NCBI GenBank assembly: GCA_000415505.1
Contig: KE354420.1
Location: 1-33,975 of the forward strand
Direction: 5' to 3'
Origin: Streptomyces afghaniensis 772
GTDB lineage: Bacteria; Actinomycetota; Actinomycetes; Streptomycetales; Streptomycetaceae
Length of the DNA stretch: 33,975 nt
Below, piece after piece: positions 1,534 through 32,824 of this stretch (position 1 is its first letter; each line of letters opens with the position of its first letter). Under the pieces are notes generated by a model. The model did not search any database. It was not told the DNA's origin and worked only from the letters and a program-made list of their open reading frames with translations. The translations under genes and the position numbers were made by a program.

Positions 1534-1545
1534 ACGCGGCGGGGT

Positions 1546-12302: not shown

Positions 12303-12355
12303 TTGACAACACGGAACACAGCAGAAAGGCTGTTGCGTATAGAGATGCCGGTTGC
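12303..12355 (+). promoter_or_regulatory. sdaA promoter -35 and GTTGCGTA operator
   Basis: TTGACA at 12303-12308 is followed 23 nt later by GTTGCGTA at 12332-12339, with a further GTTGC half-site at 12351-12355. The same TTGAC / GTTGCGYA pairing precedes purU, the Rieske gene and the dimethylglycine oxidase operon. I see no good -10 at 17 bp, so the promoter may need an activator or use a weak -10. Confidence 0.55.
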
Positions 12356-12385
12356 TTCATCAGAAACCCAGGCAGGAGCCCGCTC

Positions 12386-13768
12386 GTGGCCATCTCCGTC
12401 TTCGATCTCTTCTCCATCGGCATAGGCCCGTCCAGTTCGCACACGGTCGGTCCCATGCGGGCCGCCCGCATGTTCACCAGCCGGCTGGAGAAGGAGGATC
12501 TGCTCGCGCGGACGGCGTCGGTACGAGCCGAGCTCTTCGGCTCCCTGGGGGCCACCGGCCACGGTCACGGCACCCCCAAGGCCGTCCTGCTCGGCCTCGA
12601 GGGCAACGAGCCGCACACGGTGGACGTCGGCGCGGCCGAACGGGACGTCGAGCGGATCAGGGCGACGGGACGGCTGCGCCTGCTGGGCCGCGAGCTCGGC
12701 GACACCCACGAGATCCGTTTCGACGCGGAGCGGCAGTTGGTCCTGCACCGCCGCCGTTCCCTGCCGTACCACGCCAACGGCATGAGGCTGTTCGCGTACG
12801 ACGCCGAGGGGCTGTCCCTGCTGGAGGCCACCTACTACTCGGTCGGCGGCGGGTTCGTCGTCGACGAGGCCGCGGCCGGTGCGGACCGGGTCAAGGTCGA
12901 CGACACGGTGGTCAAGTACCCGTTCGGCAGCGGCGACGAGCTGCTGCGCCTGACCCGGGAGACGGGTCTGTCGATCTCGGCGCTGATGCTGGAGAACGAG
13001 CTGGCGTGGCGCACCGAGGAGGAGATCCGGGCGGAACTGCTGGAGATCTGGCGGGTGATGCGGCAGTGCGTGGCGCGCGGGCTGTCCTCTGAGGGGATCC
13101 TGCCCGGCGGGCTCAAGGTCCGCCGCCGGGCCCCCGCCGTGGCCAAGGCGCTGCGGACCGACGGCGAACCGGCGGCGCGGTCGTTGGAGTGGGTGACCCT
13201 CTACGCCATGGCGGTCAACGAGGAGAACGCGGCCGGCGGCCGGGTGGTCACCGCCCCGACGAACGGCGCGGCCGGCATCATCCCGGCCGTCCTGCACTAC
13301 TACGTCGACTTCGTCCACGGAGCCGACGACGACGCGGTGGTCCGGTTCCTGCTGGCGGCCGGCGCCGTCGGCCTGCTGTTCAAGGAGAACGCCTCGATCT
13401 CGGGCGCCGAGGTCGGCTGCCAGGGCGAGGTCGGCGCCGCCTGTTCCATGGCCGCGGGCGGCCTCGCGGAGGTGCTCGGCGGCTCGCCCGAACAAGTGGA
13501 GAACGCCGCCGAGATCGGCATGGAGCACAACCTGGGCCTGACCTGCGACCCGGTCGGCGGCCTGGTGCAGATCCCGTGCATCGAGCGCAACGGCATGGCG
13601 GCGGTCAAAGCCGTCACCGCGGCCCGGATGGCCCTGCGAGGCGACGGCCGCCACCACGTCTCCCTGGACAAGGTCATCAAGACCATGAAGGAGACGGGCG
13701 CCGACATGAAGGTCAAGTACAAGGAGACGGCCCGCGGCGGGCTCGCGGTCAACGTCATCGAGTGCTGA
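12386..13768 (+). CDS. sdaA: L-serine dehydratase, iron-sulfur type, single chain
   Basis: A 460-residue cytoplasmic enzyme that deaminates L-serine to pyruvate and ammonia with a [4Fe-4S] cluster, here the last step from betaine-derived glycine and serine. The N-terminal beta domain starts with [22 protein letters not shown]. The catalytic domain has [19 protein letters not shown] and cluster cysteines Cys345, Cys387 (LTCDPVGG) and Cys398 (QIPCIERN). The chain ends in Cys460 (NVIEC); in the characterised Legionella enzyme the C-terminal Cys is a fourth, displaceable ligand, so this feature is kept. The GTG at 12386 follows AGGAG with a seven-base spacer. It has its own promoter with the GTTGCG motif, placing it in the betaine regulon. 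Confidence 0.93.
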
Positions 13769-13785
13769 CGACACGGCAGGCGAGA

Positions 13786-13860
13786 TCAGTCCGGCAGGTT
13801 GTTGGTGCCGAGGAGCCGGACGAACAGCCGGTAAGAACTCGGCAGGGTGCCGGTGCTTCG
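13786..13860 (-). pseudogene. Short remnant resembling an FdhF/YdeP-like formate dehydrogenase
   Basis: In the 164-bp gap between sdaA and the Rieske gene, the minus strand encodes SSYRLFVRLLGTNNLPD followed at once by TGA. From memory, molybdopterin oxidoreductases of the FdhF/YdeP type carry a very similar stretch, YQLFVR..GTNNLPDCSNMCHE. The stop replaces the expected Cys codon (TGC to TGA would do it), and similarity fades on both sides. It is best read as a decayed fragment. Since PurU makes formate in this pathway, a former formate dehydrogenase here would make sense. The match is short and could be chance. Confidence 0.35.
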
Positions 13861-13932
13861 GCTCGGGCCGGGCGCGTCCCGGACAGTCGAATCCGCCTGG
13901 AGGGTCCGCACAGTCCCGCCTGCCCCACGACG

Positions 13933-15075
13933 CTAGCGCTCCGCGAGGTTCGCGCGGGTGCCGAGGCGGTCCTGGACCCAGTCGTGGAACTCGCCGATGT
14001 GGTGCTCGCTGGGCACCAGGACACCGCCCTTGGCGTACAGCCGGGAGCTCATCGCGGGCTGGCAGCGCTCACAGGCGTCGAAGTCCTGCCGGTTGACGCG
14101 GTCGAACAGCTCGACCGACCGGCTGACGTCCCTACCGCTCTCCACCACACCCTTCAGGTACAGCCAGTCGCACTCCACGATCGTGCGGTCGACCGACACC
14201 GGGAACATCCGGTGGAAGATCACGTGGTCGGGGACCAGGTTGATGAACACCTGCGGACGCACCGTGATCGCGTAGTACCGGCGGTCCTGTTCCTCGGAGA
14301 CCGTGGGGATACGGTCCAGGCCCTGCGAGCCGTCCACGGTGAAGCCCTGGACGTCCGAGCCGAACTCGGCGCCGTGCCCCACGTAGAACTGCGCCGCGTA
14401 GCCGTCGGCGAACTCCGGGAGGACCTCGGTCAGCTCGGGGTGGATCGTCGCGCAGTGGTAGCACTCCATGAAGTTCTCGATGATGAGCTTCCAGTTGGCC
14501 TTGACGTCGTAGACGATCCGCCGGCCGACCTCCAGGCTCTCGACGTCGTACCGCTCGATGGACTCCACGTCGCCCAGGCGCGCGACCACGTCCGCGATCA
14601 CCGACTGCTCGAACGAGGGCGGATTCTCGGCCAGGCACACCCACACATAGCCGAGCCACTCGCGTACCGCCACTGGTGCCAGGCCGTACTCGGTACGGCC
14701 GACGTCCGGCATCCTGGTCAGGTTCGGTGCCGCGACCAGCTTGCCGTTGAAGTCGTACGTCCAGGCGTGGTACGGGCACTGGAAGGCCCGCTTCACTTCG
14801 CCGGACTCCTGTGTGCACAGCTTCGCGCCCCGGTGCCGGCACACGTTGAAGAAGGCCCGCACGGAGCCGTCCCGCGACCGGGTCAGCAGGATGCTCTCCC
14901 GCCCGACGTCCACGGTCCGGAAGGCGCCCGGCTTGGACAGTTCCGACGCGCGTGCCGCGCAGAACCACATGGATTCAAATATGTGTTCCTGCTCCAGGCG
15001 GAAGATCTCCGGGTCCGTGTAGTGGTCACCGGGGAGGGTCGCGATCAGGCTCTCCGGCAGGCCGGTCGTCGTCAT
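13933..15075 (-). CDS. gbcA: Rieske non-heme iron oxygenase, glycine betaine demethylase-like
   Basis: A 380-residue oxygenase subunit, probably converting glycine betaine to dimethylglycine and formaldehyde. The Rieske [2Fe-2S] motif is Cys79-Arg-His81 (NVCRHRGAKLC) and Cys100-x2-His103 (QCPYHAWTYD). The mononuclear iron site is IIENFMECYHCATIHPEL, with His207 and His212, plus an Asp near 331-333 (RQDFDACERC). The C-terminal layout matches GbcA/stachydrine-demethylase-like enzymes. GAGGTG precedes the ATG at 15075. It is divergent from purU with back-to-back promoters. No ferredoxin reductase partner (GbcB) lies in the window, so the electron donor must be encoded elsewhere. Stachydrine or carnitine as substrate is possible, but the neighbouring dimethylglycine and sarcosine enzymes favour betaine. 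Confidence 0.85.
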   Translation of the reverse strand: MTTTGLPESLIATLPGDHYTDPEIFRLEQEHIFESMWFCAARASELSKPGAFRTVDVGRESILLTRSRDGSVRAFFNVCRHRGAKLCTQESGEVKRAFQCPYHAWTYDFNGKLVAAPNLTRMPDVGRTEYGLAPVAVREWLGYVWVCLAENPPSFEQSVIADVVARLGDVESIERYDVESLEVGRRIVYDVKANWKLIIENFMECYHCATIHPELTEVLPEFADGYAAQFYVGHGAEFGSDVQGFTVDGSQGLDRIPTVSEEQDRRYYAITVRPQVFINLVPDHVIFHRMFPVSVDRTIVECDWLYLKGVVESGRDVSRSVELFDRVNRQDFDACERCQPAMSSRLYAKGGVLVPSEHHIGEFHDWVQDRLGTRANLAER

Positions 15076-15113
15076 GGTTCACCTCGGAGTGAAGCGCCTC
15101 GGGCGGGCGAGTG

Positions 15114-15130
15114 GTTGCCTCATGTGCAAC
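15114..15130. promoter_or_regulatory. Inverted repeat GTTGC-N7-GCAAC upstream of the Rieske gene
   Basis: A perfect five-base inverted repeat with a 7-bp spacer, 39 bp upstream of the Rieske ATG. The same element with the same spacer occurs at 26982-26998 before the dimethylglycine oxidase operon. It is probably a downstream operator for the same regulator. Confidence 0.55.
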
Positions 15131-15140
15131 ATGCTTCTTG

Positions 15141-15180
15141 CTACGCAACTCACGGTGCAGTCCGGCCGAAGCGGTGTCAA
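15141..15180 (-). promoter_or_regulatory. Rieske gene promoter with GTTGCGTA operator
   Basis: On the minus strand, TTGACA (15180-15175) is followed by 17 bp and CACCGT (15157-15152), then GA and GTTGCGTAG (15149-15141). TTGCTACGCAA at 15138-15148 is itself symmetrical. The layout is nearly identical to that before the dimethylglycine oxidase operon, down to the GA before GTTGCG. Confidence 0.6.
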
Positions 15181-15184
15181 GCCC

Positions 15185-15248
15185 TTGACCGCAGGCCGTC
15201 ACAGCCAGGACCATGTTGCGTATCAGTCAGCTCGTTGCGTAATACGCA
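15185..15248 (+). promoter_or_regulatory. purU promoter with two GTTGCGTA operators
   Basis: TTGACC at 15185-15190 is followed 24 nt later by GTTGCGTA at 15215-15222. A second site, GTTGCGTAATACGCA at 15234-15248, contains the perfect palindrome TGCGTA-A-TACGCA. The -35 is four bases from the -35 of the divergent Rieske promoter (TGTCAA-gccc-TTGACC). Confidence 0.6.
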
Positions 15249-15268
15249 CTTCCCTCTGGGAGGGCTCC

Positions 15269-16141
15269 GTGTCTCTTGGACCCACAACCGGCCGCGAGTT
15301 CGTCCTCACCCTGTCGTGCCCCGACCGCTCGGGCCTCGTCCACGCCGTGACCGGCTTCCTGGTCCGGCACTCCGGGAACATCCAGGAGAGCCAGCAGTTC
15401 GACGACCGGCTGCAGGACCGCTTCTTCATGCGGGTGCACTTCGACGTAGCGGACCCGGGCACTTCACTGGAGGACCTGAAGTCCGGCTTCGCGCAGGTGG
15501 CGGAGGCGTACCGCATCTCCTGGCAGCTGTACGAGGCGTCGACGCCGACGCGCACGCTGATCATGGTCTCGAAGTTCGGGCACTGCCTGAACGACCTGCT
15601 CTTCCGCTGGCGCGCCGGCGCGCTGAACATCGAGGTGCCGGCGATCGTCTCCAACCACCGGGACTTCGAGCCGCTCGCCGAGAGCTACGGGATCCCCTTC
15701 CACCACGTGCCCGTCACCCGGGAGACGAAGCCGGAGGCGGAGGCGCGGCTGCTGGAGCTCGTCGACGAGCTGGACATCGATCTGGTGGTCCTCGCCCGCT
15801 ACATGCAGATCCTGTCGAACGACCTGTGCAAGCAGCTCGAGGGCCGGGCGATCAACATCCACCACTCGTTCCTGCCGAGCTTCAAGGGCGCGCGTCCCTA
15901 TGTCCAGGCGTACGAGCGCGGCGTCAAGCTCGTCGGAGCGACGGCCCACTACGTCACCCCGGACCTCGACGAGGGCCCCATCATCGAGCAGGACGTCATC
16001 CGCGTGAACCACTCGCAGGGGCCCGACAGCATGGTGGCCCTGGGGCGCGACGTCGAGGCGCAGGTCCTGGCGCGGGCGGTGGAATGGCACACTCAGAGCC
16101 GCGTCATGGTCAACGGCAACCGTACGGTCGTCTTCCGTTGA
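15269..16141 (+). CDS. purU: Formyltetrahydrofolate deformylase
   Basis: A 290-residue enzyme that hydrolyses 10-formyltetrahydrofolate to formate and tetrahydrofolate. The N-terminal ACT domain is LTLSCPDRSGLVHAVTGFLVRHSGN. The formyltransferase-like domain starts near residue 97 (LIMVSKFGHCLNDLLFRW). It has the catalytic Asn196/His198 in INIHHSFLPSFKG and Asp234 in TPDLDEGPIIEQ. I chose the GTG at 15269, which has GGGAGGG five bases upstream; the longer open frame would read through the operators. In betaine catabolism it regenerates tetrahydrofolate when demethylation loads the folate pool, rather than supplying purines. Its regulated promoter shared with the Rieske gene supports that role. 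Confidence 0.92.
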   Translation: MSLGPTTGREFVLTLSCPDRSGLVHAVTGFLVRHSGNIQESQQFDDRLQDRFFMRVHFDVADPGTSLEDLKSGFAQVAEAYRISWQLYEASTPTRTLIMVSKFGHCLNDLLFRWRAGALNIEVPAIVSNHRDFEPLAESYGIPFHHVPVTRETKPEAEARLLELVDELDIDLVVLARYMQILSNDLCKQLEGRAINIHHSFLPSFKGARPYVQAYERGVKLVGATAHYVTPDLDEGPIIEQDVIRVNHSQGPDSMVALGRDVEAQVLARAVEWHTQSRVMVNGNRTVVFR

Positions 16142-16150
16142 GAGATCTGT

Positions 16151-16196
16151 TTGAGGAAAATGAGCCCCACCCCCTCACACCCGTTGCCCATTGCAC
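16151..16196 (+). promoter_or_regulatory. Possible iclR promoter and weak operator
   Basis: TTGAGG at 16151-16156 is followed 26 nt later by GTTGCCCATTGCAC at 16183-16196, a degenerate form of the motif before the pathway operons. This suggests autoregulation of the IclR gene. Both elements are weak. Confidence 0.35.
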
Positions 16197-16209
16197 CTAG
16201 AGTTTCGCC

Positions 16210-17001
16210 ATGAGCAACCACGGCGCTGAGACCGCAGGCGCTCCCAGTGGCGGAGTGCAATCCGTTGACCGTGCCGTCGCCGTGCTGGAGATCCTCGCCC
16301 AGCACGGCGAGGCGGGCGTGAGTGAGGTGGCCGCGGCGATCGACGTCCACAAGTCCACCGCTTTCCGTCTGCTCGGCGCGCTGGAAGCGCATGGGATGGT
16401 CGAGCAGGAGAACGAACGGGGAAAGTACCGTCTCGGCTTCGGGGTCGTGCGCCTGGCCGGCGCCGTGACGGGCCGTATCGCCGTCACCAGACACGGGCGC
16501 GGGATCTGTGAGCGTCTCGTCGACGACGTGGGCGAGACGATGAACATCGCCGTGCTCGAGTCCCACCACGCGATCAACCTCTACCAGGTGCGCGGCTCGG
16601 CGGCCATCGCCGCGCAGAACTGGGTGGGACGGCTGACGCCGCTGCACTGCACGTCGAGCGGCAAGGTCCTCCTGGCCCACCTCGCCCGCGAGGAACGCGA
16701 CGCGCTCCTCGCCGAGGCCGGCCTCCCCCGGCTGACACCGCGCACGGTGACCTCCAGGAAGAAACTGGAGGCGGACCTGTCCGCAGCCCGTGAGCAGGGC
16801 TATGCCATCACGCTGGAGGAATACGAGGAGGGCCTCAACGCCCTGTCCGCCCCCGTGCGTTCGGGCGACGGCGAGGTCGTCGCCGCCCTCAGCGCGTCGG
16901 GGCCGGCCTTCCGGCTCACCGTGGAGCGGATGCACGAACTCGCGCCCCTGCTGGTCGCGGGAGCGGACGAGCTCAGTCAACGTCTCGTCCACGCGGACTG
17001 A
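16210..17001 (+). CDS. IclR-family regulator, probable controller of betaine catabolism
   Basis: A 263-residue regulator. The winged helix (about 16-70) includes SVDRAVAVLEILAQHGEAGVSEVAAAIDVHKSTAFRLLGALEAHG, read here in two stretches, with recognition helix HKSTAFRLLGALE. The IclR effector domain (about 85-255) includes LHCTSSGKVLLAHL and ALSAPVRSGDGEVVAALSASGP. It sits 68 bp downstream of purU on the same strand and faces the sarcosine oxidase operon. Within the region it is the only regulator next to the GTTGCGYA sites, so I infer that it binds them; IclR proteins commonly bind symmetrical sites at such promoters. The ribosome binding site is weak. The 3' end lies inside a 28-bp tandem repeat that supplies the stop codon. 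Confidence 0.88.
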   Translation: MSNHGAETAGAPSGGVQSVDRAVAVLEILAQHGEAGVSEVAAAIDVHKSTAFRLLGALEAHGMVEQENERGKYRLGFGVVRLAGAVTGRIAVTRHGRGICERLVDDVGETMNIAVLESHHAINLYQVRGSAAIAAQNWVGRLTPLHCTSSGKVLLAHLAREERDALLAEAGLPRLTPRTVTSRKKLEADLSAAREQGYAITLEEYEEGLNALSAPVRSGDGEVVAALSASGPAFRLTVERMHELAPLLVAGADELSQRLVHAD

Positions 17002-17064
17002 GAGCCAACGTCTTGCCCACGCGGACTGAGAGCCACCGTCTCGCCCACGCGGACCGAGGTTCAC
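16981..17064. repeat. 28-bp tandem repeat, three copies, spanning the iclR stop codon
   Basis: Copies at 16981-17008, 17009-17036 and 17037-17064 share the core CCACGCGGACTGAGAGCCA. The first two differ at only three or so positions; the third is more degenerate at its end. The first copy encodes the C terminus VHAD and the stop. Because 28 is not a multiple of three, each following copy is read in another frame and copy two brings a stop there too, so slippage would change the C terminus only slightly. Confidence 0.85.
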
Positions 17065-17092
17065 GCCAAGCGCGGAACAGGCCCCTCATGCC

Positions 17093-17137: not shown

Positions 17138-17150
17138 CACGCTGCCCGCG

Positions 17151-17756
17151 TCAGCCCGTCCACTCCACGGCCGCGTCCAGCAGCCAGTCCGTCAGGTGGC
17201 CGGCGAAGGACGCACGGACCAGCACCCAGAACCCGGCCCTGGGGTCGTCACGGGCGACCAGGACGACCTGGGTGCGGGCCAGGTTGGTCTGGGCGCAGCG
17301 CCCCGGGCCGAAGACCCGCGGGTGAAGATCGAGCGAGCAGCCGTGGGCCAGCAGGTCGCGGGCCCGGGGGCCGGCGACGAGGAGCGTGGTGCGCTGGGCC
17401 GACACATCGATGACGGACACGGGTTCGTCGCCCGCGGCCTCACGGATCCGGCTCTCCAGGTCCCGCCGACCGCCAGGCGGTCCCACCACGAGCCATTCGT
17501 CGGGGCCGAGCCACAGCGCGGTCAGCTCCCCGGCGCGGACCACGGCGCCGGGTTCGACGGGGAGTTGGAGCCCCAGCGCCAGTCCCACGGCGTCCGCCGC
17601 CGCTCCCTTGGGGTCGAGACGCACATTGAGCTGGGTCAGGAAGGGCAGTTCCGCCAGCCGGACCGCGCCCCCGGAGGCGCGGGTCGCGGCGGCCAGCCGG
17701 CCGGCGGCAGGCGACAGCGGGCTGCGGAGCGGGGTGGTAACGGCGGTGTCAGCCAT
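17151..17756 (-). CDS. soxG: Sarcosine oxidase gamma subunit
   Basis: A 201-residue subunit of heterotetrameric sarcosine oxidase, which converts sarcosine and tetrahydrofolate to glycine and 5,10-methylenetetrahydrofolate with hydrogen peroxide. It is related to the GcvT fold and has no known catalytic residues. Typical stretches are LTALWLGPDEWLVVGP, VSVIDVSAQRTTLLVAGPRARDLLAHGCSLDLHP and FGPGRCAQTNLARTQVVL. The ATG at 17756 overlaps the end of soxA by eight bases, implying coupling. It is last in the operon DMGO-folD-glyA-soxB-soxDA-soxG and is followed by the strong terminator at 17093-17137. Confidence 0.9.
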   Translation of the reverse strand: MADTAVTTPLRSPLSPAAGRLAAATRASGGAVRLAELPFLTQLNVRLDPKGAAADAVGLALGLQLPVEPGAVVRAGELTALWLGPDEWLVVGPPGGRRDLESRIREAAGDEPVSVIDVSAQRTTLLVAGPRARDLLAHGCSLDLHPRVFGPGRCAQTNLARTQVVLVARDDPRAGFWVLVRASFAGHLTDWLLDAAVEWTG

Positions 17757-20700
17757 CGCGGCGGGCTCCCTCAGGGTCGTAGAGGACGGGGCTCGCGACG
17801 GTCACCGGGACCAGCCGGTCGCCCACGGGGGCGTAGAGGCGCTCACCGATGCGGTCCCGGCCGCCCTTGACGAGCGCGAGGGCGAAGGTCCGGCCGAGGG
17901 CCGCGCTGCGGTAGCTGGAGGTGACGTGACCGAGCATCGGGACGGGCGGCGCGGGCAGCACACTGCCGGCGACCAGGTGCGTGCCTTCGGGGAGGAACGT
18001 TCCCGGGTCCTCCGGAAGCAGCCCGACCAGGTGCTTGCGGTCGGGGCGGGCGGTGTCGGCGCGGGCGTGGGACCGCTTGCCGATGAAGTCCCGCTTCTTC
18101 TTCGACACCACCCAGCTCATGCCGAGGTCCTGCGGCGTCACGGTGCCGTCGGTGTCCTGGCCGACGATCGGATAGCCCTTCTCCGCGCGCAGGACGTGCA
18201 TGGTCTCCGTGCCGTACGGGGTGATGCCGTACGGGGCGCCGGCCTCGTACAGCGCCTCCCACAGGGCGAGGGCCTCCCACGGTGACACGTTGATCTCGTA
18301 GGCGAGTTCACCGGAGAAGCTGATCCGGCACACGCGCGCCTCGATGCCGGCGACGGTCGTCTCGCGCCACGCCATGAACGGGAAGTCCTCGTTGGCGACG
18401 GCGAGTCGGGGCGCGAGCGAGCCGAGGACCTCGCGGGAGCGCGGGCCGACCAGGGCGACGGTGGCCCACTGCTCGGTCACCGACGTGCAGTGGACGCGCA
18501 GTTCGGGCCACTCCGTCTGCAGCCACTCCTCCATCCAGTCCAGCACGGCGGCTGCGTTGCCCGTCGTGGTGGTGACCAGGTAGCGGTCCTGGTCGAGGCG
18601 GATCACCGTGCCGTCGTCGAAGACCATGCCGTCCGGGCGGCACATCACGCCGTAGCGGATCATGCCGACCTTCAGGGTGCTCATCATGTTGGTGTAGAGC
18701 AGGTCGAGGAAGACGCCGGCGTCCGGGCCCTGAACGTCGATCTTGCCGAGGGTGGAGGCGTCCATGAAGGCGACGCCCTCGCGGGCGGCGGCACACTCGC
18801 GCAGTACGGCCGTCTCCATGTCCTCGCCGTCCTGCGGGTAGTACCAGGGCCGCTTCCACTGGCCGACGTTCTCGAACAGGGCGCCGTGCGCGACATGCCA
18901 TTCGTGCAGGGCGGTGGTGCGGATCGGGTCGAGCAGCGCACCACGGTCGCGGCCGGCGAGGGCGGCGAAGGAGACGGGGGTGTACGGCGGCCGGAAGGTG
19001 GTGGTGCCGAGCGCGGAGACGTCCACGCCGAGCAGTTCGGCGACGACGCCACTGGCCAGGACGCCGGAGGTCTTGCCCTGGTCGTTCGCCGTGCCGGCCG
19101 TGGTGTACCGCTTGGTGTGCTCCACGGAGCGCATGCCCGCACCGGTCGCCCGGGCCAGGTCGTCGACGGTGACGTCGCGTTGCAGGTCGACGAAGCGCGG
19201 GGCGCCTTCCCGGCTAGGGATGGTGAACACGCGCATGGGCGGCGTCTGCGGTGGCGTGGCCACCTGGGGCAGGCGCGGGGATTCACAGGTGTAGCCCTCG
19301 GCCTGAAGCGCGCGGGCACCGGCCGCCGCTCCCTGCGCTAGGACCCGGGCCAGCTCGAATGCGCCGCTCGCGCCGCCCGCGACCTCGACCGCCTGACGGC
19401 AGGTGTCGGGGACGAAGGTGCCGAGCTCCTCGTCGTGGCGGAGCTTGCCTCCCGCCTGGCTGAACAGGTGCGCGACCGGGTTCCAGCCGCCGGAGACCAG
19501 GAGCAGGTCGGCGGCGAACTCCCGTCGGCCTGTTGTCTCTCCGTACGGGGCGACGGTCACGGAAGTGAGCCGGGGGGCGCCTTCCGTGCCGGTGACGGCG
19601 TGGCCCGTCAGCACCTCGATGCCGGCCTGCCGGGCACGCTCCGCCCACTCCCCCGGCTCGGCGCGGGTGTCGACGACGGCCTCGACCGCCACGCCCGCCG
19701 CGGCGAGGTCCAGTGCTGCCGCATAGGCGCTGTCGTTGGTGGTGAAGACGACCGCGTGACGGCCGGGCAGGACGCCGTGGCGGTTGACGTAGGCGCGGGC
19801 CGAGGCGGCCAGCATCACGCCGGGGCGGTCGTTGTCCGCGAAGGCCAGCGAGCGTTCGTGCGCGCCGGTGGCGAGGACGACCCGGCGGGCGCGGATGCGC
19901 CAGACGCGTTCGCGGGAGACGTGCTCCGGGGCCTCGGCGCCGAGGTGGTTGGTGCGGCGCTCCACGGCGAGGAGGTGGTTGTCGTCGTAGTAGCCGAAGA
20001 CAGTGGTGCGGCGCAGTACGCGTACGTCGGGGGCCGCGTCGAGTCGGGCGGTGGTGTCGTCCACCCAGTCCAGGAGTTCGCCGGTGCCGAGGAGGCTGCC
20101 GCCGGGTTCCGGCTGGTCGTCGGCGAGGATGACGCGGGCACCTGAGCGGGCGGCGGCTGCCGCTGCGGCGAGGCCGGCCGGGCCCGCGCCGACGACCAAG
20201 AGGTCGCAGTGGGCGTGTACGGCGTCGTAGCGGGCCGGGTCCGGGGCGGTGGCGAGGCGGCCCTGGCCGGGGAGGCCGGTCGCGACCAGGCCGTCGTAGA
20301 GCTCGACGGTGGTGGCGGGGAGCATGGGCTCGGGGAACGGGGCCTCGATCTGGACGACCGCGTTGGGCTCCTCGACGCCGGCCGAGAAGATGCCGCGGGG
20401 GCGGCCCAGCTTGATGCTGGTGCCGGTCTGGATGACGCCGTTGGCGAGGAGGGCGGAGGCGAGGGTGTCGCCCTTGTAGCCCTGGTACGCGGTGCCGTCG
20501 AAGGTGAAGGTGAGCGGGGTGTCGCGGTGGATTCGGCCGCGGGTGGGGTGGCGGAACGGCTGGGTTTCCTCGCCCCCGCCGCCCCTACCCGTCCGATCCT
20601 CCAGGGGCTCCGCCCCTTCGACCCCGCTGGGGGCTGCGCCCCCGGACCCCCGCGGGGGCTGCGCCCCCTGCACCCCCACCGGGGCTGCCGCCCCAGGTCC

Positions 20701-21096
20701 AGACCCCAGCGGTGGCTGCGCCCCCCGCACCTCCACCGGGGCTGCCGCCCCGGACCCCGCTTCGGCCTGAACGGCCTCGTCCTCAAGCGCCGGACGGGCT
20801 GGATGCACCTGGCGTGACTCGAAGGTGGCAGGGCGCTCCTCCCCCGCCCGGTACACCGTCAGGATCTCGTTCGTCGACGTGTCCCGCACCGCGTTGAACC
20901 AGCGGCGGCAGCCCGACGCGTGGGTCCAGCGTTCGGCGAAGGGGCCCCTGGGGTTGTCGCGGAAGAAGAGGTAGCGGGCCCAGTCCTCGTCGGTGAGGGA
21001 GGACGGGTCCTGCGGGTACGGCACGTGGGCCTGGCCGCCGTAGTGGAACTCGGCCTCGTCGCGGGGCCCGCACCACGGGCAGGGGATCAGCAGCAT
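17749..21096 (-). CDS. soxA: Sarcosine oxidase delta and alpha subunits in one continuous frame
   Basis: One open frame of 1115 codons. Residues 1-90 are a full SoxD, the zinc-binding delta subunit: MLLIPCPWCGPRDEAEFHYGG with the Cys pair, then GCRRWFNAVRDT. The ATG at 21096 has GGGAG upstream. Residues about 98-176 are a Gly/Ala/Pro-rich linker translated from a dispersed GC-rich repeat. From about 185 the alpha subunit begins: GRIHRDTPLTFTFDG and KGDTLASALLANG, the dinucleotide fold DLLVVGAGPAGLAAAAAAA, and a C-terminal GcvT-like folate domain (EGVAFMDASTLGKIDVQGPDAG). No stop separates them, and no ATG, and no GTG with a ribosome binding site, lies just before the alpha domain. The product is therefore probably a SoxD-SoxA fusion; initiation at a GTG within the repeat is the alternative. 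Alpha binds NAD and folate, beta binds FAD/FMN. Confidence 0.85.
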   Translation of the reverse strand: MLLIPCPWCGPRDEAEFHYGGQAHVPYPQDPSSLTDEDWARYLFFRDNPRGPFAERWTHASGCRRWFNAVRDTSTNEILTVYRAGEERPATFESRQVHPARPALEDEAVQAEAGSGAAAPVEVRGAQPPLGSGPGAAAPVGVQGAQPPRGSGGAAPSGVEGAEPLEDRTGRGGGGEETQPFRHPTRGRIHRDTPLTFTFDGTAYQGYKGDTLASALLANGVIQTGTSIKLGRPRGIFSAGVEEPNAVVQIEAPFPEPMLPATTVELYDGLVATGLPGQGRLATAPDPARYDAVHAHCDLLVVGAGPAGLAAAAAAARSGARVILADDQPEPGGSLLGTGELLDWVDDTTARLDAAPDVRVLRRTTVFGYYDDNHLLAVERRTNHLGAEAPEHVSRERVWRIRARRVVLATGAHERSLAFADNDRPGVMLAASARAYVNRHGVLPGRHAVVFTTNDSAYAAALDLAAAGVAVEAVVDTRAEPGEWAERARQAGIEVLTGHAVTGTEGAPRLTSVTVAPYGETTGRREFAADLLLVSGGWNPVAHLFSQAGGKLRHDEELGTFVPDTCRQAVEVAGGASGAFELARVLAQGAAAGARALQAEGYTCESPRLPQVATPPQTPPMRVFTIPSREGAPRFVDLQRDVTVDDLARATGAGMRSVEHTKRYTTAGTANDQGKTSGVLASGVVAELLGVDVSALGTTTFRPPYTPVSFAALAGRDRGALLDPIRTTALHEWHVAHGALFENVGQWKRPWYYPQDGEDMETAVLRECAAAREGVAFMDASTLGKIDVQGPDAGVFLDLLYTNMMSTLKVGMIRYGVMCRPDGMVFDDGTVIRLDQDRYLVTTTTGNAAAVLDWMEEWLQTEWPELRVHCTSVTEQWATVALVGPRSREVLGSLAPRLAVANEDFPFMAWRETTVAGIEARVCRISFSGELAYEINVSPWEALALWEALYEAGAPYGITPYGTETMHVLRAEKGYPIVGQDTDGTVTPQDLGMSWVVSKKKRDFIGKRSHARADTARPDRKHLVGLLPEDPGTFLPEGTHLVAGSVLPAPPVPMLGHVTSSYRSAALGRTFALALVKGGRDRIGERLYAPVGDRLVPVTVASPVLYDPEGARRDG
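20565..20804. repeat. Dispersed GC-rich Streptomyces-type repeat between soxD and soxA
   Basis: About 240 bp that, from memory, match the GC-rich elements found between genes in many Streptomyces genomes. One end reads GCCGGACGGGCTGG (after CTCGTCCTCAAGC) and the other CCCCGCCGCCCCTACCCG. Inside, units with GGGGCTGCCGCCCC and GGGGGCTGCGCCCCC recur, two of them as a near-perfect repeat of about 57 bp. Unlike most copies it is translated, giving residues about 98-176 of the fused SoxD-SoxA protein with the repeated segment GAAAPVxVxGAQPPxGSG. Confidence 0.8.
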
Positions 21097-21116
21097 GGGT
21101 CGGCTCCCTGATGGTC

Positions 21117-23629: not shown

Positions 23630-24486
23630 ACGGGGTTCGCGTTCCTCTCGGCGGCCTCGACGACATTGGCGAGCAACATGGCCCGGGTCATGGGGCCCAC
23701 ACCCCCGGGCATCGGCGCCAGCCAGCCGGCGACCCGGGCGGCGTCCGGGTGGATGTCACCCACCAGGCCCTGGTCGGTGCGGGTGATGCCGACGTCCAGG
23801 ACGGCCGCGCCGGGGCGCAGCATGTCCTTGGTGATCAGTCCGGGCGAGCCGGCTGCGGCGACGACGATGTCCGCCTCGCGTACGTGCCAGGCCAGGCCCT
23901 TGGTTCCGGTGTGGCACAGGGTCACGGTGGCGTTCTCGGACCTGCGGGTGAGCAGCAGTCCGATGGGCCGTCCGACGGTGATGCCCCGGCCGATCACGCA
24001 CACCCGCGCTCCCGCGAGCGGCACGTCGTGGCGGCGGAGCAGTTCGACGATGCCGCGCGGGGTGCACGGCAGCGGGGCCTCGACGCCGAGGACGAGCCGG
24101 CCGAGGTTGACGGGGTGCAGTCCGTCGGCGTCCTTGGCCGGGTCCATGCGTTCCAGTACGGCGTTGGCGTCGAGGTGGCGCGGGAGCGGGAGCTGGACGA
24201 TGTACCCGGTGCAGGCCGGGTCGGCGTTGAGTTCGTCGATCGTCTCCTCGACCTGCCGCTGCGAGGCGTCGGCGGGCAGCTCCCGCCGGATGGAGGCGAT
24301 GCCCACCTGCGCGCAGTCCCGGTGCTTGCCGCCGACGTAGGCGCGGCTGCCGGGGTCGTCGCCGACCAGCACGGTACCGAGGCCCGGCGCACGGCCGGTG
24401 GTCGCGGTCAACTTGGCCACGCGCTCGGCCAGTTCGAGACGGATGGCGGCGGCGGTCGCCTTGCCGTCAAGGAGTTGTGCGGTCAC
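23626..24486 (-). CDS. folD: Bifunctional methylenetetrahydrofolate dehydrogenase / cyclohydrolase
   Basis: A 286-residue enzyme that oxidises 5,10-methylenetetrahydrofolate with NADP and hydrolyses the product to 10-formyltetrahydrofolate. The catalytic pair is Tyr50 and Lys54 in [12 protein letters not shown]. The signatures [28 protein letters not shown] and [13 protein letters not shown] (nucleotide binding) and the C-terminal [18 protein letters not shown] are intact. It starts with a GTG at 24486 behind AAGGAA, 26 bp after the dimethylglycine oxidase stop. It feeds PurU, so carbon from the two flavin demethylases can leave as formate. Confidence 0.94.
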
Positions 24487-24512
24487 CTGGAGTTCCTTCC
24501 AACGCCGAGGAC

Positions 24513-27048
<2,536 letters not shown>

Positions 27049-27177: not shown

Positions 27178-28140
27178 CTACTTGATCCAGGCGTCGACCT
27201 TGCCGCGGTTGGCCTCGACCCACTTCTTCGCCGCGGCCTCCGGCGCCATCTTGTCCACCGCGATGTACTTGGCCACGGTGTTCTGGTCGTCGTTGGTCCA
27301 GTTGAACTTCTTCACCAGGTCATAGGCCGGGCTGCCCGACTTGGCGAACTTGGCGCTGACGATCTTGTCGAGCTTGTACACCGGGTAGTCGCAGGCGACC
27401 TTCTCGGCGTCGGCGTCGCAGCCCGTCTTGTACTCGGGCAGGCTGACCTTCTTGAGCGGCACCTCGGACATGAACCACTGCGGCTCGTAGAAGTAGCCGA
27501 TCACCCATTCCTTGTTCTTCTCGGCGTTGCGGTACGCCTGGATGAGCGCGGTCTCGCTGCCCGCGTACACCACCTTGAAGTCCAGCTTGAGGTTCTTCAC
27601 GAGCGCCTCGTCGTTGGTGACGAACGACGGATCGCCGTCGAGGAGCTGGCCCTTGCCACCCGACTCGGAGGTCTTGAACTTCGACGCGTACTTGTTGAGG
27701 TTCTTCCAGTCGAGGATGTCCGGGTGCGCCTTCGCCAGCCACGGCGGCACGTACCAGCCGATGAGGCCCTTGTTGCCGGTCGGGCCCGCGTCGACGGCGG
27801 TCTTCTGCTGGGTGATGTACTTCTTCTTCAGATCGTCGTGGCCCCAGTTCTCGACGACGGCGTCGACCTCGCCCGTCCCGAAGCCCTGCCAGGCGATCTC
27901 CTCCTTCAGGTTCTTCTGTTCGACCTTGCAGCCGAGGTCGTGCTCGGCGACGTAGGCGAGGACCGCCGCGTTCGCCTCATAGCCCACCCACGGGTTGATC
28001 GCGAGGTTGAAGGTGCCGCACTTGCCCGAGCTGCCCGAGCCGCCCGCGCTGTCGTCACCTACCTTCGCGCCCGAGCAGGCCGTGAGGGTGAGGCCGAGGA
28101 CGGCCAGGCCGGCCGCGCCGGCTCTGAAGTGTCGTGCCAT
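27178..28140 (-). CDS. proX: Glycine betaine/quaternary amine ABC transporter, substrate-binding lipoprotein
   Basis: A 320-residue lipoprotein. The signal ends in the lipobox LTLTAC (Cys22), so it is anchored to the outer face of the membrane. The mature domain is OpuAC-like: TFNLAINPWVGYEANAAVLAYVAEHDLGC, then VDAVVENWGHDDL, GLIGWYVPPWLAKAHPDI and EWVIGYFYEPQWFMSE, with many Trp and Tyr residues that may form the cation-binding cage. AAGGAG precedes the ATG at 28140, 13 bp after the permease. It presumably binds betaine or choline; which one is not clear. It is the last gene of the betB-proV-permease-proX operon. Confidence 0.87.
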   Translation of the reverse strand: MARHFRAGAAGLAVLGLTLTACSGAKVGDDSAGGSGSSGKCGTFNLAINPWVGYEANAAVLAYVAEHDLGCKVEQKNLKEEIAWQGFGTGEVDAVVENWGHDDLKKKYITQQKTAVDAGPTGNKGLIGWYVPPWLAKAHPDILDWKNLNKYASKFKTSESGGKGQLLDGDPSFVTNDEALVKNLKLDFKVVYAGSETALIQAYRNAEKNKEWVIGYFYEPQWFMSEVPLKKVSLPEYKTGCDADAEKVACDYPVYKLDKIVSAKFAKSGSPAYDLVKKFNWTNDDQNTVAKYIAVDKMAPEAAAKKWVEANRGKVDAWIK

Positions 28141-28153
28141 GGTGTGGTGCTCC

Positions 28154-28852
28154 TTAAGCGCCGGCGCGGCGAGCCGCTGCCTGAGTGATCCGGTCGAACA
28201 TGACTCCGAGCAGGACGATGGCGAGCCCTGCCGCGAGTCCCTTGCCGTACAGCTGGCCCTGTGAGAACCCGGCCACGACGTCGTAGCCGAGGGCACCCGC
28301 ACCCACCAGGCCGCCCACCACGACCATCGACAGCACGTAGATCAGGCCCTGGTTGGTCGCGAGGGTCAGGGCGCCCCGGGACATGGGCAGTTGGACCTTG
28401 GTGATGATCTGCCAGGTGTTGCACCCGGTGGACGTGGCCGCCTCGACGGTGGTCTCGGGCACGGCCCGCACGCCGTCCGCGATGATCTTGATGGCGACCG
28501 GCGCCGCGTAGACGACGGCGGCGACGATGGCTGTGAACCGTGTCGCGCCGAACAGCGCGAGGAACGGCACGAGGTAGACGAACGGCGGCATGACCTGGGC
28601 CGCGTCCAGGGTGGGCCGCAGCAGCCGGTCCACGAGCGCGCTGCGTCCCATCCACACCCCGAGGACGACGCCGAGCAGCATCACGAGCACCGTCGCCACC
28701 GCGGTGGACGCCAGCGTCGTCATGCCGTCCGACCAGACACCGGTACCGACCAGCAGGCCCACGCACACGGCCGTGGTGACCCCGGCGCGCCACCCGCCCA
28801 GCACCGTGCCGATGGCGACGAGGGCGGCGCCGACGAGCCCACCGACGGGGAG
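28154..28852 (-). pseudogene. proW: Second permease domain of the betaine ABC transporter, out of frame with the first
   Basis: This stretch encodes a second full permease domain: GGLVGAALVAIGTVLGGWRAGVTT, STAVATVLVMLLGVVLGVWMGRS, the coupling-loop region VPETTVEAATSTGCNTWQIITKVQLPMSRGAL, and a C terminus at RITQAAARRAGA. It continues the upstream permease but in the -1 frame. The break lies near the four G's at 28847-28850, where one extra base would restore a continuous D-S-P-V-G-G reading. There is no start or ribosome binding site of its own for the first membrane helices; a GTG within GTVLGG could only make a shortened domain. Cause: mutation, sequencing error, or less likely frameshifting. 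Confidence 0.72.
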
Positions 28853-30156
28853 TCGGTCAGCACGGTCTGGAACGGGTTGAGCAGGCCGTTGGTGAGGGTG
28901 TCGCGGAAGGCGTTGGTCAGGCCCGACAGGTTGTCCTGTGCCCAGGTGGTCACGTCGGCCGTCGTCTTGGCGATGCTGCTGCCGATGCCGCCGTCGCCGG
29001 GGAACTCGGCCGCCCACACGTACGTGTGCGACAGGTACGCCAGCACCAGCGCCACCACGGCGCCTGCCGCGAGCAGCTGCCGGCGCCACTTGAGGAAGGG
29101 GCTGTCAGAGCCCCGGGCCGTCTCCGCCCGCGCGCTCGCCGCGGTGGTGACCCGGTCCAGCACGATGGCCATGACGACGATGGCCAGACCGGCGTTGAAC
29201 GCCGTGCCGACGTCCAGTGACTGCAGGGCCTGGACGACGGTCTTGCCGAGGCCGGGCGCGTCGATCAGCGCGGCGATGGTCACCATGGCCAGAGCGGCCA
29301 TGATGGTCTGGTTGACGCCCATCACCACGGTCCGCTTGGACATCGGCAGCAGGACCTTGAGCAGCGCCTGCCGCCGCGTCGCGCCCATCGAGTCCGCCGC
29401 CTCCACCGTGGTTTCCGGTACGGAGCGGATGGCGTGCGCGGTGATGCGGATCGCCGGTGGTGCCGCGTAGATGGCGGTGGCGATCGTGGCCGAGGCGGGA
29501 CCGATCAGGAAGAACAGGGTCAGCGGCGCCAGATAGACGAAGGTCGGCATCGTCTGCATGAAGTCCAGGAACGGCGTGACGATCCGGTGGAACCGTTCCG
29601 ACAGTCCGGCCCACACGCCCAGGGGAATGGCGAACAGCAGCGCGACGAAGACCGCGGAGAGGGTCAGCGCCAGCGTGTCCATGCTCTCCTGCCAGAGCCC
29701 TTGCAGGCCGAGGAAGGTGAAGCCGGCCACGGCCAGCAGCGCCACCCGCCAGTTGCCCACGGCCCAGGAGACGTAGCCGGCGATGCCGACGACGCCGAGC
29801 CAGCCGATCTGCGGAACCGGGCGGTCCGCGGACGGCTGCGAGATCAGCTCCTGGACGAAGGTCACCAGGGTGTCGATGACCAGGCGGATCTCGTTGAAGA
29901 AGTAGAGGAAGAGGGGGTTGGAGTTGCGGTCGGCGCCGATCGAGTCGTTGACGTCGTTGAACCACCGGTGCAGATCGGTCAGGTCGGCCGCCGCGAGGGA
30001 CAGGGTCTGCTTGCCGCGCAGCACGGCGAAGAGCACCAGCCAGAGGAGCAGGATCGCGGCCACCACCACGGCGCGGTTGACCGTGCGCACGCGCCGGGCG
30101 GGAGCGGGTGGCTCCACGGTCCCGGTCTTCTCCGGTTTCTCCATCGCGACGGTCAT
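28720..30156 (-). CDS. proW: Betaine ABC transporter permease, first domain, with frameshifted tail
   Basis: As read, a 478-residue protein from the ATG at 30156, whose A is shared with the proV stop (TGATG). The N terminus has one membrane helix (RAVVVAAILLLWLVLFAV) and a large external loop. The permease domain follows (TLALTLSAVFVALLFAIPLGVWAG, then the coupling loop VPETTVEAADSMGATRRQALLKVLLPMSKR). It goes on through a helix LLAAGAVVALVLAYLSHTYV into the start of a second unit. After LTDSP, near 28850, the frame turns to low-complexity SSAPPSSPSARC and ends at 28720. The intended product is evidently one chain of about 670 residues with two tandem permease domains, so both halves of the channel come from one gene. 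Real coding in this frame stops near 28850. Confidence 0.8.
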   Translation of the reverse strand: MTVAMEKPEKTGTVEPPAPARRVRTVNRAVVVAAILLLWLVLFAVLRGKQTLSLAAADLTDLHRWFNDVNDSIGADRNSNPLFLYFFNEIRLVIDTLVTFVQELISQPSADRPVPQIGWLGVVGIAGYVSWAVGNWRVALLAVAGFTFLGLQGLWQESMDTLALTLSAVFVALLFAIPLGVWAGLSERFHRIVTPFLDFMQTMPTFVYLAPLTLFFLIGPASATIATAIYAAPPAIRITAHAIRSVPETTVEAADSMGATRRQALLKVLLPMSKRTVVMGVNQTIMAALAMVTIAALIDAPGLGKTVVQALQSLDVGTAFNAGLAIVVMAIVLDRVTTAASARAETARGSDSPFLKWRRQLLAAGAVVALVLAYLSHTYVWAAEFPGDGGIGSSIAKTTADVTTWAQDNLSGLTNAFRDTLTNGLLNPFQTVLTDSPSVGSSAPPSSPSARCWAGGAPGSPRPCAWACWSVPVSGRTA

Positions 30157-31244
30157 CACGCGTCGCCTTCCTGCCCGGCGACCACCGCGAGGATCTCCTC
30201 GTCGCCGACGATGCCGAGCAGCTTGCCGTCCTCCACGACCTTGACCGGCTTCTCGGCGGCGAGCACCGCACGCGTGGCCTCCTTCACCACGACGTCCGGG
30301 CCGAGCTCGGGGCCGTCCAGGGGGTCGTCGGGCTCGGCCGGGCGCATGATCCACCGCAGGGTCAGTACGTCACCGCGGGGCACGTCCCTGACGAAGTCGC
30401 GTACGTAGTCGTCGGCGGGGGCGCCGACCAGTTCGTCGCCGGTGCCGCACTGGACCGTCCTGCCGTCGCGCATGATGAGGATGCGGTCGCCCAGCTTGAG
30501 CGCCTCGGACAGGTCGTGGGTGATGAACACCATCGTCTTGCCGACCTCGTGGTGCAGACGGATGACCTCGTTCTGCATGTCGCGGCGGATCAGCGGGTCG
30601 AGCGCCGAGAACGGCTCGTCGAAGAGGAGCACGTCCGGGTCACCGGCCAGGGCGCGGGCGAGACCGACGCGCTGCTGCATACCGCCGGAGAGCTGGTCGG
30701 GATAGGAGCTCTCGTACCCCGAGAGGCCGACGAGCTCGACGACCTCCAGGGCCCGCTTGGTGCGCTCGGCCCGGCCCATGCCGCGTATCTCCAGCCCGAA
30801 CGCCACGTTGTCGACGACCCGCCGGTGCGGCAGCAGCCCGAAGTGCTGGAAGACCATGGAGAACTTGCTCCGGCGCAGTTCGCGCAGGCGGCCCGCGTCC
30901 GCGTCGCGGATGTTCTCGCCCTCGAAGAGGATCTCGCCGGCGGTGGGTTCGATGAGTCGGGTCAGACAGCGCGCCAGGGTGGACTTGCCGGAACCGGACA
31001 GGCCCATGACGACGAACACCTCGCCGGGCGCGACGTCGAAGCTCACGTCGCGCACGGCGGCGGTGCATCCGGTGCGGTCCATCAGTTCGCGGCGGGTGAG
31101 CCCGCGCAGTTCCTCGGAGCCCGGTACCTGGTCCGCCTTCGGTCCGAACACCTTCCACAGCTCGCGTACGGAGATGACCGGCGTGCCTGCCGCGTCCTGG
31201 GGTGTGCCGCGCCGCTGCGGCACCTCGGTCGTTGCTGGGGTCAT
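30156..31244 (-). CDS. proV: Glycine betaine/proline ABC transporter ATP-binding protein
   Basis: A 362-residue ATPase of the ProV/OpuAA type. Walker A is GLSGSGKST (81-89), the Q loop is in [13 protein letters not shown], the signature is LSGGMQQR (185-192), Walker B is [13 protein letters not shown], and the switch His is in [15 protein letters not shown]. The family-specific N-terminal extension [22 protein letters not shown] is present. The C-terminal third looks like a CBS-type domain ([19 protein letters not shown], then [16 protein letters not shown]), which in osmotic transporters senses ionic strength. AGAGGT precedes the ATG at 31244, 20 bp after the betB stop, and the stop overlaps the permease start by one base. 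Confidence 0.93.
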
Positions 31245-31264
31245 GTTCGACCTCTTTTCGGCGT

Positions 31265-32734
31265 TCAGCCGCGGAACCAGTGCTGCGGCCTGGGTTGGAT
31301 GTTCTGCCAGATGTGTTTGGGTTCGCGGTACTCGTCCAGGCCGGTCGGGCCCAGCTCCCGGCCCACGCCGGAGTGCCCGAACCCGCCCCATTCCGCCTGC
31401 GGCACATAGGGGTGGTAGTCGTTGATCCACACCGTTCCGTGGCGCAGCCGGCGGGCGACCCGCTGGGCCTTCCCGGCGTCCTGCGTCCAGACGGCGCCGG
31501 CGAGTCCGTACTCGGTGTCGTTGGCGATGCGTACGGCGTCGTCCTCGTCGGTGAAGCGCTCGACGGTGAGCACGGGCCCGAAGGACTCCTCGTGCACCAC
31601 CCGCATGTCCTGACCGCACTCGTCGAGCACGGTGGGCGGGTAGTAGTGGCCGCCGGCCAGGGCCGGGTCGTCGGGGCGTTCGCCGCCGCAGCGCAGGACG
31701 GCGCCCTCGGCGAGTCCGGCCGCGACGTACGCCTCGACCTTGGCCAGGTGCTGGGCGGAGATCAGCGGGCCGGTCTCGGCCCGCGGGTCGAAGGGGCCGC
31801 CGAGCCGGATCCGCCGGGCGCGGCGGACCACCTCGTCGACGAACCGGTCGTGCAGCGAGTCCTCGACGATCAGCCGGGCGCCGGCCGAGCAGACCTGGCC
31901 CGAATGCAGGAAGACGGCCGTGAGCGCGAAGTCCACGGCCGTCTCGAAGTCGGCGTCGGCGAAGACGACATTGGGGTTCTTGCCGCCGAGTTCCAGTGCG
32001 ACCTTCTTCACGGTCGCGGCGGCGGTGGCCATGATGCGTCTGCCGGTGTCCAGGCCGCCGGTGAAGGAGACCAGGTCGACGGCCGGGTCCTCGGCGAGGG
32101 GCGCCCCCACCTCGGGCCCGGTCCCCAGGACGAGGTTGGCGGCACCGGCCGGGAGCCCGGCCTCCGCCAGTGCCTTCATCAGCAGGACGGAAGTCGAGGG
32201 GGTGAGCTCACTGGGCTTGAGGACGATCGTGTTGCCCGCGAGGAGAGCGGGCGCGACCTTCCAACTCGCCTGGAGCAGCGGGTAGTTCCAGGGGGTGATC
32301 AGTGCGCACACGCCGATCGGCCCGTACTCGACGCGGCTGACGGCGTCGGCGCGGCCGGTGTCGATCACCCGGCCCGCATCGGTGCCGCCGAGCCCTCCGT
32401 AGTAGCGGAAGCAGGAGACGACGTCGGCGATGTCGTACTCGCTCTCCACCAGCCGTTTGCCGGTGTCCAGCGATTCCGCGCGGGCGAACGCGTCGGCGTC
32501 GCGTTCGAGGAGGTCGGCGGTGCGCAGCAGGAGGGCACCGCGCTCGCGCTCGGGGGTGCGCGGCCAGGGCCCTTCGTCGAAGGCCCGGCGGGCCGCGGCG
32601 ATGGCCGCCTCGGCGTCGGGGCGGGTGCCTTCGGACACCGTCACGGAGAGCGAGCCGTCGGCGGGGCAGCGGATGTCCCGGTGGCCGCCGGCCACGGGAT
32701 CCCGCCATTGTCCGTCCACGTACAGGTCTGCCAC
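31265..32734 (-). CDS. betB: Betaine aldehyde dehydrogenase
   Basis: A 489-residue NAD(P)-dependent aldehyde dehydrogenase, best placed as the second step from choline to glycine betaine. Key residues: Asn150 in [23 protein letters not shown], Glu248 in [12 protein letters not shown] and nucleophile Cys282 in [12 protein letters not shown]. The end includes [27 protein letters not shown]. The likely start is the GTG at 32734 with a weak AAGGG site; further upstream the frame runs through the operator sequences and is not convincing. It follows the choline dehydrogenase gene on the same strand but has its own promoter region, and it is the first gene of the operon continuing into the ABC transporter. 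Other aminoaldehydes are possible substrates; context favours betaine aldehyde. Confidence 0.88.
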
Positions 32735-32752
32735 GTCGAGGGCCCTTCGAGC

Positions 32753-32824
32753 GAATTGCGTTGCGCATCGTGCATCGAATTGCTTGTGGTGGAACACTCT
32801 GGAGAAGGCTGCAACCCACGTCAA
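32753..32824 (-). promoter_or_regulatory. betB promoter region with variant GTTGCGCA site
   Basis: On the minus strand TTGACG (32824-32819) is followed by 17 bp and CAGAGT (32801-32796). Downstream, 32760-32767 reads GTTGCGCA on the plus strand, inside a block with two CGAATTGC direct repeats (32752-32759 and 32776-32783). The operator is further from the -35 than at the other promoters, so control may differ. Confidence 0.45.

Follow-up and report, generated by a model that had tools for sequence, protein, structure and literature searches.

Operon heads of the betaine locus

The stretch of DNA analysed here (the window, 33,975 bp) is the whole of contig C715 of Streptomyces afghaniensis 772, whose 9.85-Mb genome is assembled in 1,724 contigs. 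Its genes would together lead from choline through glycine betaine, dimethylglycine, sarcosine, glycine and serine to pyruvate, and they include an IclR-family regulator gene (iclR1) and an operon headed by a dimethylglycine-oxidase-like gene (DMGO). Five promoters of this locus, and in a weaker form the start of iclR1, share one repeated element (Table 1). A sequence-only reading had described it as TTGAC followed after 23-25 nt by GTTGCGYA; the repeated unit is larger, a 36-bp tandem operator of the type GTTGCGYA-N11-RTTGC-N7-GNAAC. The Rieske oxygenase gene of the window (gbcA) is called GbcA-like from its best match and context only, as it fails the cut-off of the NCBIfam model for GbcA glycine betaine monooxygenase.

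Table 1 Operators, likely promoters and genes of the locus (window coordinates unless stated; the -10 hexamers are predicted)
Feature	Position	Strand	Remarks
sdaA tandem operator	12332..12367	+	35.4 bits, fifth in window; E=0.00142 with relatives-only model on own genome
sdaA likely promoter	TTGACA 12303-12308, N17, AAGGCT 12326-12331	+	-10 poor
purU tandem operator	15215..15250	+	E=5.1e-6; in 36/36 unique upstreams of named relatives
purU likely promoter	TTGACC 15185-15190, N18, GACCAT 15209-15214	+	
gbcA (GbcA-like Rieske oxygenase) tandem operator	15114..15149	-	E=2.6e-5
gbcA likely promoter	TTGACA 15180-15175, N17, CACCGT	-	
DMGO-folD-glyA-sox tandem operator	26982..27017	-	E=8.7e-6; 46/48 relatives' upstreams
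DMGO likely promoter	TTGACA 27048-27043, N17, CACATT	-	
betB tandem operator	32760..32795	+	inverted relative to transcription; E=1.4e-6, best in genome; 41/42 relatives' upstreams
betB likely promoter	TTGACG 32824-32819, N17, CAGAGT 32801-32796	-	
iclR1 weaker tandem operator	16183..16218	+	elements at 16183 and 16202; 22.0 bits, sixth in window; second element over start codon
iclR1, IclR-family regulator, candidate binder	16210..17001	+	Pfam HTH_IclR 4.5e-16, IclR_C 2.1e-41, both above Pfam cut-offs
iclR2, second IclR gene, beside betA	L065:1057-1854 (contig C764)		HTH_IclR and IclR_C above Pfam cut-offs; GTG start, ~0.8 kb past window edge
sdaA, L-serine ammonia-lyase	12386..13768	+	TIGR00720 688.7 bits, above cut-off
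gbcA, GbcA-like Rieske oxygenase	13933..15075	-	Rieske and Ring_hydroxyl_A; NF058607 227.6 bits, below cut-off 670
purU, formyltetrahydrofolate deformylase	15269..16141	+	TIGR00655 356.5 bits, above cut-off
DMGO-like operon, whole	17151..26951	-	domain and model matches
dimethylglycine-oxidase-like gene	24513-26951	-	domain-based name (DAO, FAO_M, GCV_T); curated models all below cut-off
folD	23626-24486	-	in DMGO operon
glyA	22346-23629	-	in DMGO operon
soxD and soxA	within 17749-22674	-	in DMGO operon
soxG	17151-17756	-	in DMGO operon
betB-led group (betB-like, ABC transporter ATPase, ChoW/ProW-like permease, OpuAC binding protein)	27178..32734	-	domain matches
betB-like gene	31265-32734	-	BADH model 582.3 bits, below cut-off 668.6
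OpuAC binding protein	27178-28302	-	no operator upstream in 32/32 relatives' upstreams
betA-like GMC oxidoreductase	32932..33975	-	GMC_oxred N and C; runs past window end
GntR/FadR-type protein	11333-12208		beside sdaA; DNA-binding protein

The coordinates given by the sequence-only reading proved exact, as did its distances from TTGACA/C to GTTGCG (23 nt at sdaA, 24 at purU, 25 at both gbcA and DMGO). Its statement that the sites lie just downstream of the -10 also agrees with our assignment, in which the operator begins 0 bp (sdaA, purU, betB) or 2 bp (gbcA, DMGO) past the likely -10 hexamer. These hexamers, predicted from sequence, lie 17-18 bp from the -35, and the constant gap of 23-25 nt therefore corresponds to an ordinary promoter spacer plus the -10. 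The site before betB, previously taken for a variant, is present, but it is a full 36-bp operator that is inverted and abuts the likely -10. Likewise, the 'extra symmetrical copies' at 15114-15130, 15234-15248 and 26982-26998 exist, although they are not extras but the second elements of the tandems, 19 bp further on. The weak site reported before iclR1 is also real and larger than noted, since it forms a tandem whose second half covers the start codon.

Architecture and genome-wide distribution of the operator

The operator consists of two 17-bp IclR-type elements in a 19-bp register (about two helical turns). At the promoters, the second element, a palindrome or pseudopalindrome, opens with GTTGC or ATTGC 19 bp past GTTGCGYA. 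The pattern GTTGC-N14-RTTGC occurs exactly five times in the window, at the promoters of sdaA, gbcA, purU, the DMGO operon and betB. By comparison, 26 alternative spacers (4-13 and 15-30) gave six matches altogether, and 200 Markov controls for the N14 pattern gave a mean of 0.06 with a maximum of one. The enrichment of GTTGCGYA claimed earlier was also borne out, with nine copies in the window versus 1.58 expected (the largest number in 100 shuffles was seven); one of the nine (1169-1176, minus strand) lies outside the regulated promoters. In the second element, GTTGC-N7-GCAAC is exact at gbcA and DMGO, carries one mismatch at sdaA and iclR1, and is more degenerate at purU and betB.

According to the main text of Suvorova and Gelfand (2021, PMC8222616), IclR-family motifs follow GTT-11-AAC, tandem centres are 18-22 nt apart in 94 groups, which is taken as tetramer binding, and site positions peak between -3 and +1 relative to the gene start. 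Similarly, the betaine operator has a GTT-N11-AAC palindrome (its second element), centres 19 bp apart at all five promoters and at iclR1, and a site at a gene start, whereas its core is GTTGCG instead of GTTYCR. It is a further case within the known IclR-operator class; the main text of the same paper, as distinct from its supplementary tables, makes no mention of betaine, sarcosine, SoxA or PurU. The three-box operators of PcaU/PobR in Acinetobacter, as described there, resemble it in combining a palindrome with an outside direct half-site repeat, but they serve aromatic catabolism, and in the betaine operator the third box possibly belongs to a weak 17-bp element with a fixed 19-bp register. 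With three strong half-sites and a weak fourth half at gbcA and DMGO, a degenerate two-palindrome reading is equally possible there.

Since the copies lie near the transcript start and are partly palindromic, a leader-RNA element (riboswitch or attenuator) instead of a DNA operator has to be considered. We regard it as extremely unlikely: the element is inverted at betB, it overlaps the presumed transcript start, and a scan of the window returned no Rfam match at gathering scores.

Another important question is whether the operator is specific to this locus. Fifty-five sites of relatives, with the window excluded, went into a matrix; because the consensus served to pick them, their own scores are no evidence, and the weight rests on the window result and on the inner-gene controls described below. 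In the window, the five promoters ranked on top (35-49 bits), followed by the iclR1 start (22 bits). An Infernal sequence model made from 54 of the 55 sites (that of L082, whose second half is poor, was left out of the alignment) returned six matches at E<=10 in the whole genome, namely the five promoters (E from 1.4e-6 to 0.00142) and a further match (E=1.87), with 150 of the 2,557 first-look candidates scored and the E-values rough. The sequence-only reading had proposed a matrix scan; here the matrix from relatives places the five promoters at the top of the window, and among the genome candidates scored they were the only significant matches. The sites are kept at the operon heads of relatives.

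The bare pattern GTTGC-N14-RTTGC was found 12 times in the genome (ten times when reversed), and the seven matches outside the window look like chance occurrences. Outside the betaine locus, C420:30219 (L001:4243, minus strand) carries GTTGCGTACGCGTACTTCTGTTGC, of which genome G009 has an exact copy, without a second palindrome. The exact palindrome GTTGC-N7-GCAAC occurs at nine places in 9.85 Mb, four of which are in the betaine locus. A single perfect palindrome at C785:6774-6790 (L240:2275) lies shortly before a frame that is asparagine-synthase-like, as read from its first residues.

The locus continues on contig C764. Window positions 33693-33975 and C764:1-284 (L065) share a 284-bp overlap (99.3% identical), so the break in betA is an assembly break; in the complete relative G009, one continuous stretch corresponds to both contigs. 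C764 carries the N-terminal part of betA, the second IclR gene, a second Rieske oxygenase, a ferredoxin reductase, a metallo-beta-lactamase-fold protein and a zinc alcohol dehydrogenase (adh), and the frame before the reductase reads as a putative Rieske ferredoxin. Weaker operators were scored before adh (11.8 bits), at the reductase operon (20.0 and 18.9) and between betA and iclR2 (15.3 and 8.7). Two perfect palindromes lie in the betA-iclR2 interval, one at 969 and one at 1049, of which the second overlaps the GTG start codon of iclR2. When the genome was scanned for TTGAC-gap-GTTGCGYA, seven places were found: four in the window, one before adh and two, on C722 and C787, which were rejected because they lie inside open reading frames. 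The adh copy would stand upstream of the gene only if adh starts at an inner ATG, as homologue length suggests.

Conservation in relatives and association with IclR genes

A second matrix, made from the five window sites only, was applied to unique 250-bp upstream stretches from 78 named loci, with a threshold of >=15 unless stated otherwise. Sites were present before purU (36/36), DMGO (46/48), betB (41/42), the reductase operon (49/50), adh (43/45) and betA (40/43), while 42 of the 66 iclR2 upstreams reached 15 and 58 reached at least 10. None was found at this threshold before the inner genes soxG (0/16), glyA (0/9), folD (0/15), OpuAC (0/32) and mbl (0/34), in total 0/106. A second 'betA' row (0/46) was kept out of these controls, since the query there was the C-terminal part, so that the 'upstream' falls within betA itself. 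Over the named loci (1.48 Mb, repeats kept), 341 of the 405 matches at >=15 had a mapped start no more than 300 bp away. Because divergent neighbours share upstream stretches, matches were recounted by nearest start, and 36 purU, 46 DMGO and 41 betB upstreams kept a site of their own; 19 of the 36 purU upstreams face betB and belong to a second purU copy. This copy, divergent to betB, is seen in relatives such as L069, L070, L072 and L102 and not at that place in the window. In L220, a tandem site in the same register (20.4 bits) lies between the betB and DMGO homologues.

The likely promoter is conserved together with the operator in part. With distances counted from the fifth letter, TTGAC lies 26 or 27 bases before GTTGCG in all 59 anchored rows (of 66) of DMGO upstreams, where CACATTGA is strongly conserved; it lies at 36 or 37 bases in 52 of the 55 anchored betB rows (of 61) and at 24 or 25 bases in 26 of the 43 anchored purU rows (of 50). 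Given that GTTGCGYA alone is expected 1.6 times in such a window, chance or mere relatedness of promoter sequences might be invoked. Its probability is practically negligible, as the operator is rare genome-wide, kept at operon heads, absent before inner genes and associated with iclR.

This association was assessed in 295 Streptomyces genomes, our own included, with IclR homologues classed as close (E<1e-97), remote (~55-60% identical) or none. The exact site pattern gave 324 matches versus 48 for the reversed pattern, which occurred at 0.15-0.20 per genome in every class. At least two exact sites were present in 68 of the 71 genomes with a close IclR (G007, G022 and G061 being the exceptions), in 14 of the 83 with a remote one and in 5 of the 141 without (Fisher p=2e-45 for close-IclR versus IclR-less genomes, treating genomes as unrelated). 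Remote-IclR genomes have mostly a single site (at least one in 64/83). In seven mapped loci of this class (L076-L082, from G016, G177, G237, G247, G093, G197 and G164), a similar tandem site lies just 3' of the IclR gene; it precedes a zinc alcohol dehydrogenase in six of them (not in L082), and five also hold oxidase and Rieske homologues. In 96 of the 104 close iclR genes whose alignment starts by residue 3, the start codon is overlapped, at a constant offset of -8, by a palindrome with up to one mismatch. Its right half also encodes the Met-Ser-Asn start, so that protein conservation contributes, whereas the left half lies upstream of the gene. Outside Streptomyces, where 56 genomes have a related IclR, 7 of 24 examined IclR genes (45-54% identity) have a near-start palindrome versus 0.010 expected per 240 bp.

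Of the 141 genomes lacking an IclR match at 1e-60, 47 were tested, and one of these, G058 (L239), has the oxidase at 1e-100 as well as GbcA-like genes. The 19 kb around that oxidase contain neither a palindrome with up to one mismatch nor a matrix match above 12, and its locus is likely under some other control.

The GntR/FadR-type gene adjoins sdaA and encodes a DNA-binding protein, and a different regulator of this sort could in principle own the sites. We consider this very unlikely, since 40 other loci, 36 of them with an exact site, hold no homologue of it (E<=1e-20, identity >=35%; loci cut around the betaine genes), and the palindrome recurs at the start codons of iclR genes and is of the IclR motif class.

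Candidate regulators and mode of action

Palindrome type, 19-bp tandem, start-codon position, conservation and association with iclR genes together make the predicted IclR-family regulon well supported. Very probably, an IclR-family regulator has the repeated element as its operator at the heads of the betaine-locus operons, where it acts as a repressor with autoregulation and is released by a pathway metabolite. Without inducer, the regulator would be bound past the -10, in either orientation, and would block RNA polymerase as well as its own gene; the 19-bp register would bring two dimers of one putative tetramer onto the same DNA face, and a pathway metabolite would free the operator. The one-carbon and formaldehyde outlets purU, folD and adh would be under the same operator. 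Repression, as the sequence-only reading had also proposed, would fit the position of the operator 0-2 bp past the likely -10 and over start codons.

An activator site is expected at or upstream of the -35. A regulator that is mainly an activator, or dual like BhcR, rather than a plain repressor is unlikely in view of where the operator lies at the five promoters and over the iclR start codons. BhcR of Paracoccus denitrificans, proposed in PMC11323563 to have a dual role, is nonetheless the nearest curated NCBIfam model for IclR1 and likewise belongs to glyoxylate-side metabolism; however, IclR1 scores 188.8 bits against the NF045644 cut-off of 350, and the target genes differ.

Which IclR protein reads the sites is a separate question. 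The sequence-only reading had assigned all units to the one at 16210; a common IclR-family regulator is strongly supported by the operator type, the 19-bp tandem, the iclR start site and the site-gene association, and IclR1 is a candidate binder, but its sole role is unsupported, since there is a second IclR and some genomes with a single close IclR also carry sites. Over their full length IclR1 and IclR2 are 68% identical (83% in the DNA-binding domain, 64% in the effector domain), and the recognition helix VHKSTAFRLLG is identical in 115/115 IclR proteins compared. Both paralogues probably read the operator. In a quick IclR tree, purU-side and betA-side copies separate only partly (8 and 9 label changes versus shuffled means of 25 and 38), and a single duplication is therefore not demonstrated.

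It is rather unlikely, if conceivable, that only IclR2 reads the sites of the locus and IclR1 reads another set or none. Two perfect palindromes surround the start of iclR2, and G101 and G221, with one close IclR each, still have two exact sites each; on the other hand, the iclR1 start is also under a tandem site, and the recognition helix is the same. A further reading, less likely than not, is that the two sister proteins share about ten operators, each protein also sitting on its own start codon, and that, with their diverged effector domains, the pathway integrates two metabolites. One of these could for instance act early (choline/betaine) and the other late (sarcosine/glycine/one-carbon), perhaps with mixed tetramers on the operator halves.

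A number of results weigh against the IclR repressor explanation. The right half of the first element is poor, so that element is no clean palindrome, and 17 of the 43 anchored purU rows lack TTGAC in the stretch upstream. With 150 of the 2,557 first-look candidates scored and rough E-values, the Infernal scan missed weaker sites and did not return those on C764. Not every homologue has a site at >=15 (gbcA-like 18/45, sdaA 3/8, gbcA2 2/20); many of the gbcA-like genes are not operon heads or are paralogues, and this may account for their count. Only 3 of 12 iclR1 upstreams reach 15 (nine reach at least 10), and in the divergent region shared by iclR2 and betA the site is nearest iclR2 itself in 17 of 66 upstreams; the iclR2 count mostly reflects sites closer to betA. 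In addition, 13 of 567 shuffled upstreams reach 10, the highest 18.1, and 64 of the 405 matches in the named loci have no mapped start within 300 bp, so lone weak matches mean little. IclR-less genomes hold 33 exact sites versus 21 for the control, and 17 of the 24 remote IclR genes outside Streptomyces have no palindrome near the start. Given the identical recognition helix, the operator does not reveal which paralogue acts on it, leaving both as candidates at every site. Finally, some IclR proteins activate or act both ways, as in the BhcR passage (PMC11323563).

The repressor reading gives betaine demethylation in Streptomyces a concrete candidate regulator and operator. The regulon would connect the degradation of choline and betaine with folate recycling (purU, folD) and with the removal of formaldehyde (adh). 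Known betaine and choline regulators come from other families, such as GbdR of Pseudomonas (AraC type) and BetI (TetR type). GbdR, BetI (PMC12442346) and, in Bacillus thuringiensis, SoxR with sigma54 (PMC4941409) control the same kind of pathway. In contrast to GbdR, BetI and SoxR/sigma54, the candidate here belongs to the IclR family. Among the matches listed in the literature searched, there was no betaine/sarcosine regulator of this kind in Streptomyces, and the one study listed for IclR DAP-seq in Streptomyces was on Burkholderia. As the palindrome accompanies related IclR genes outside Streptomyces in part of the cases, it could help to locate such loci.

With no evident tie to the betaine locus, the region 387-3450 of the window carries glycoside hydrolase family 53 and rhamnogalacturonan lyase genes.

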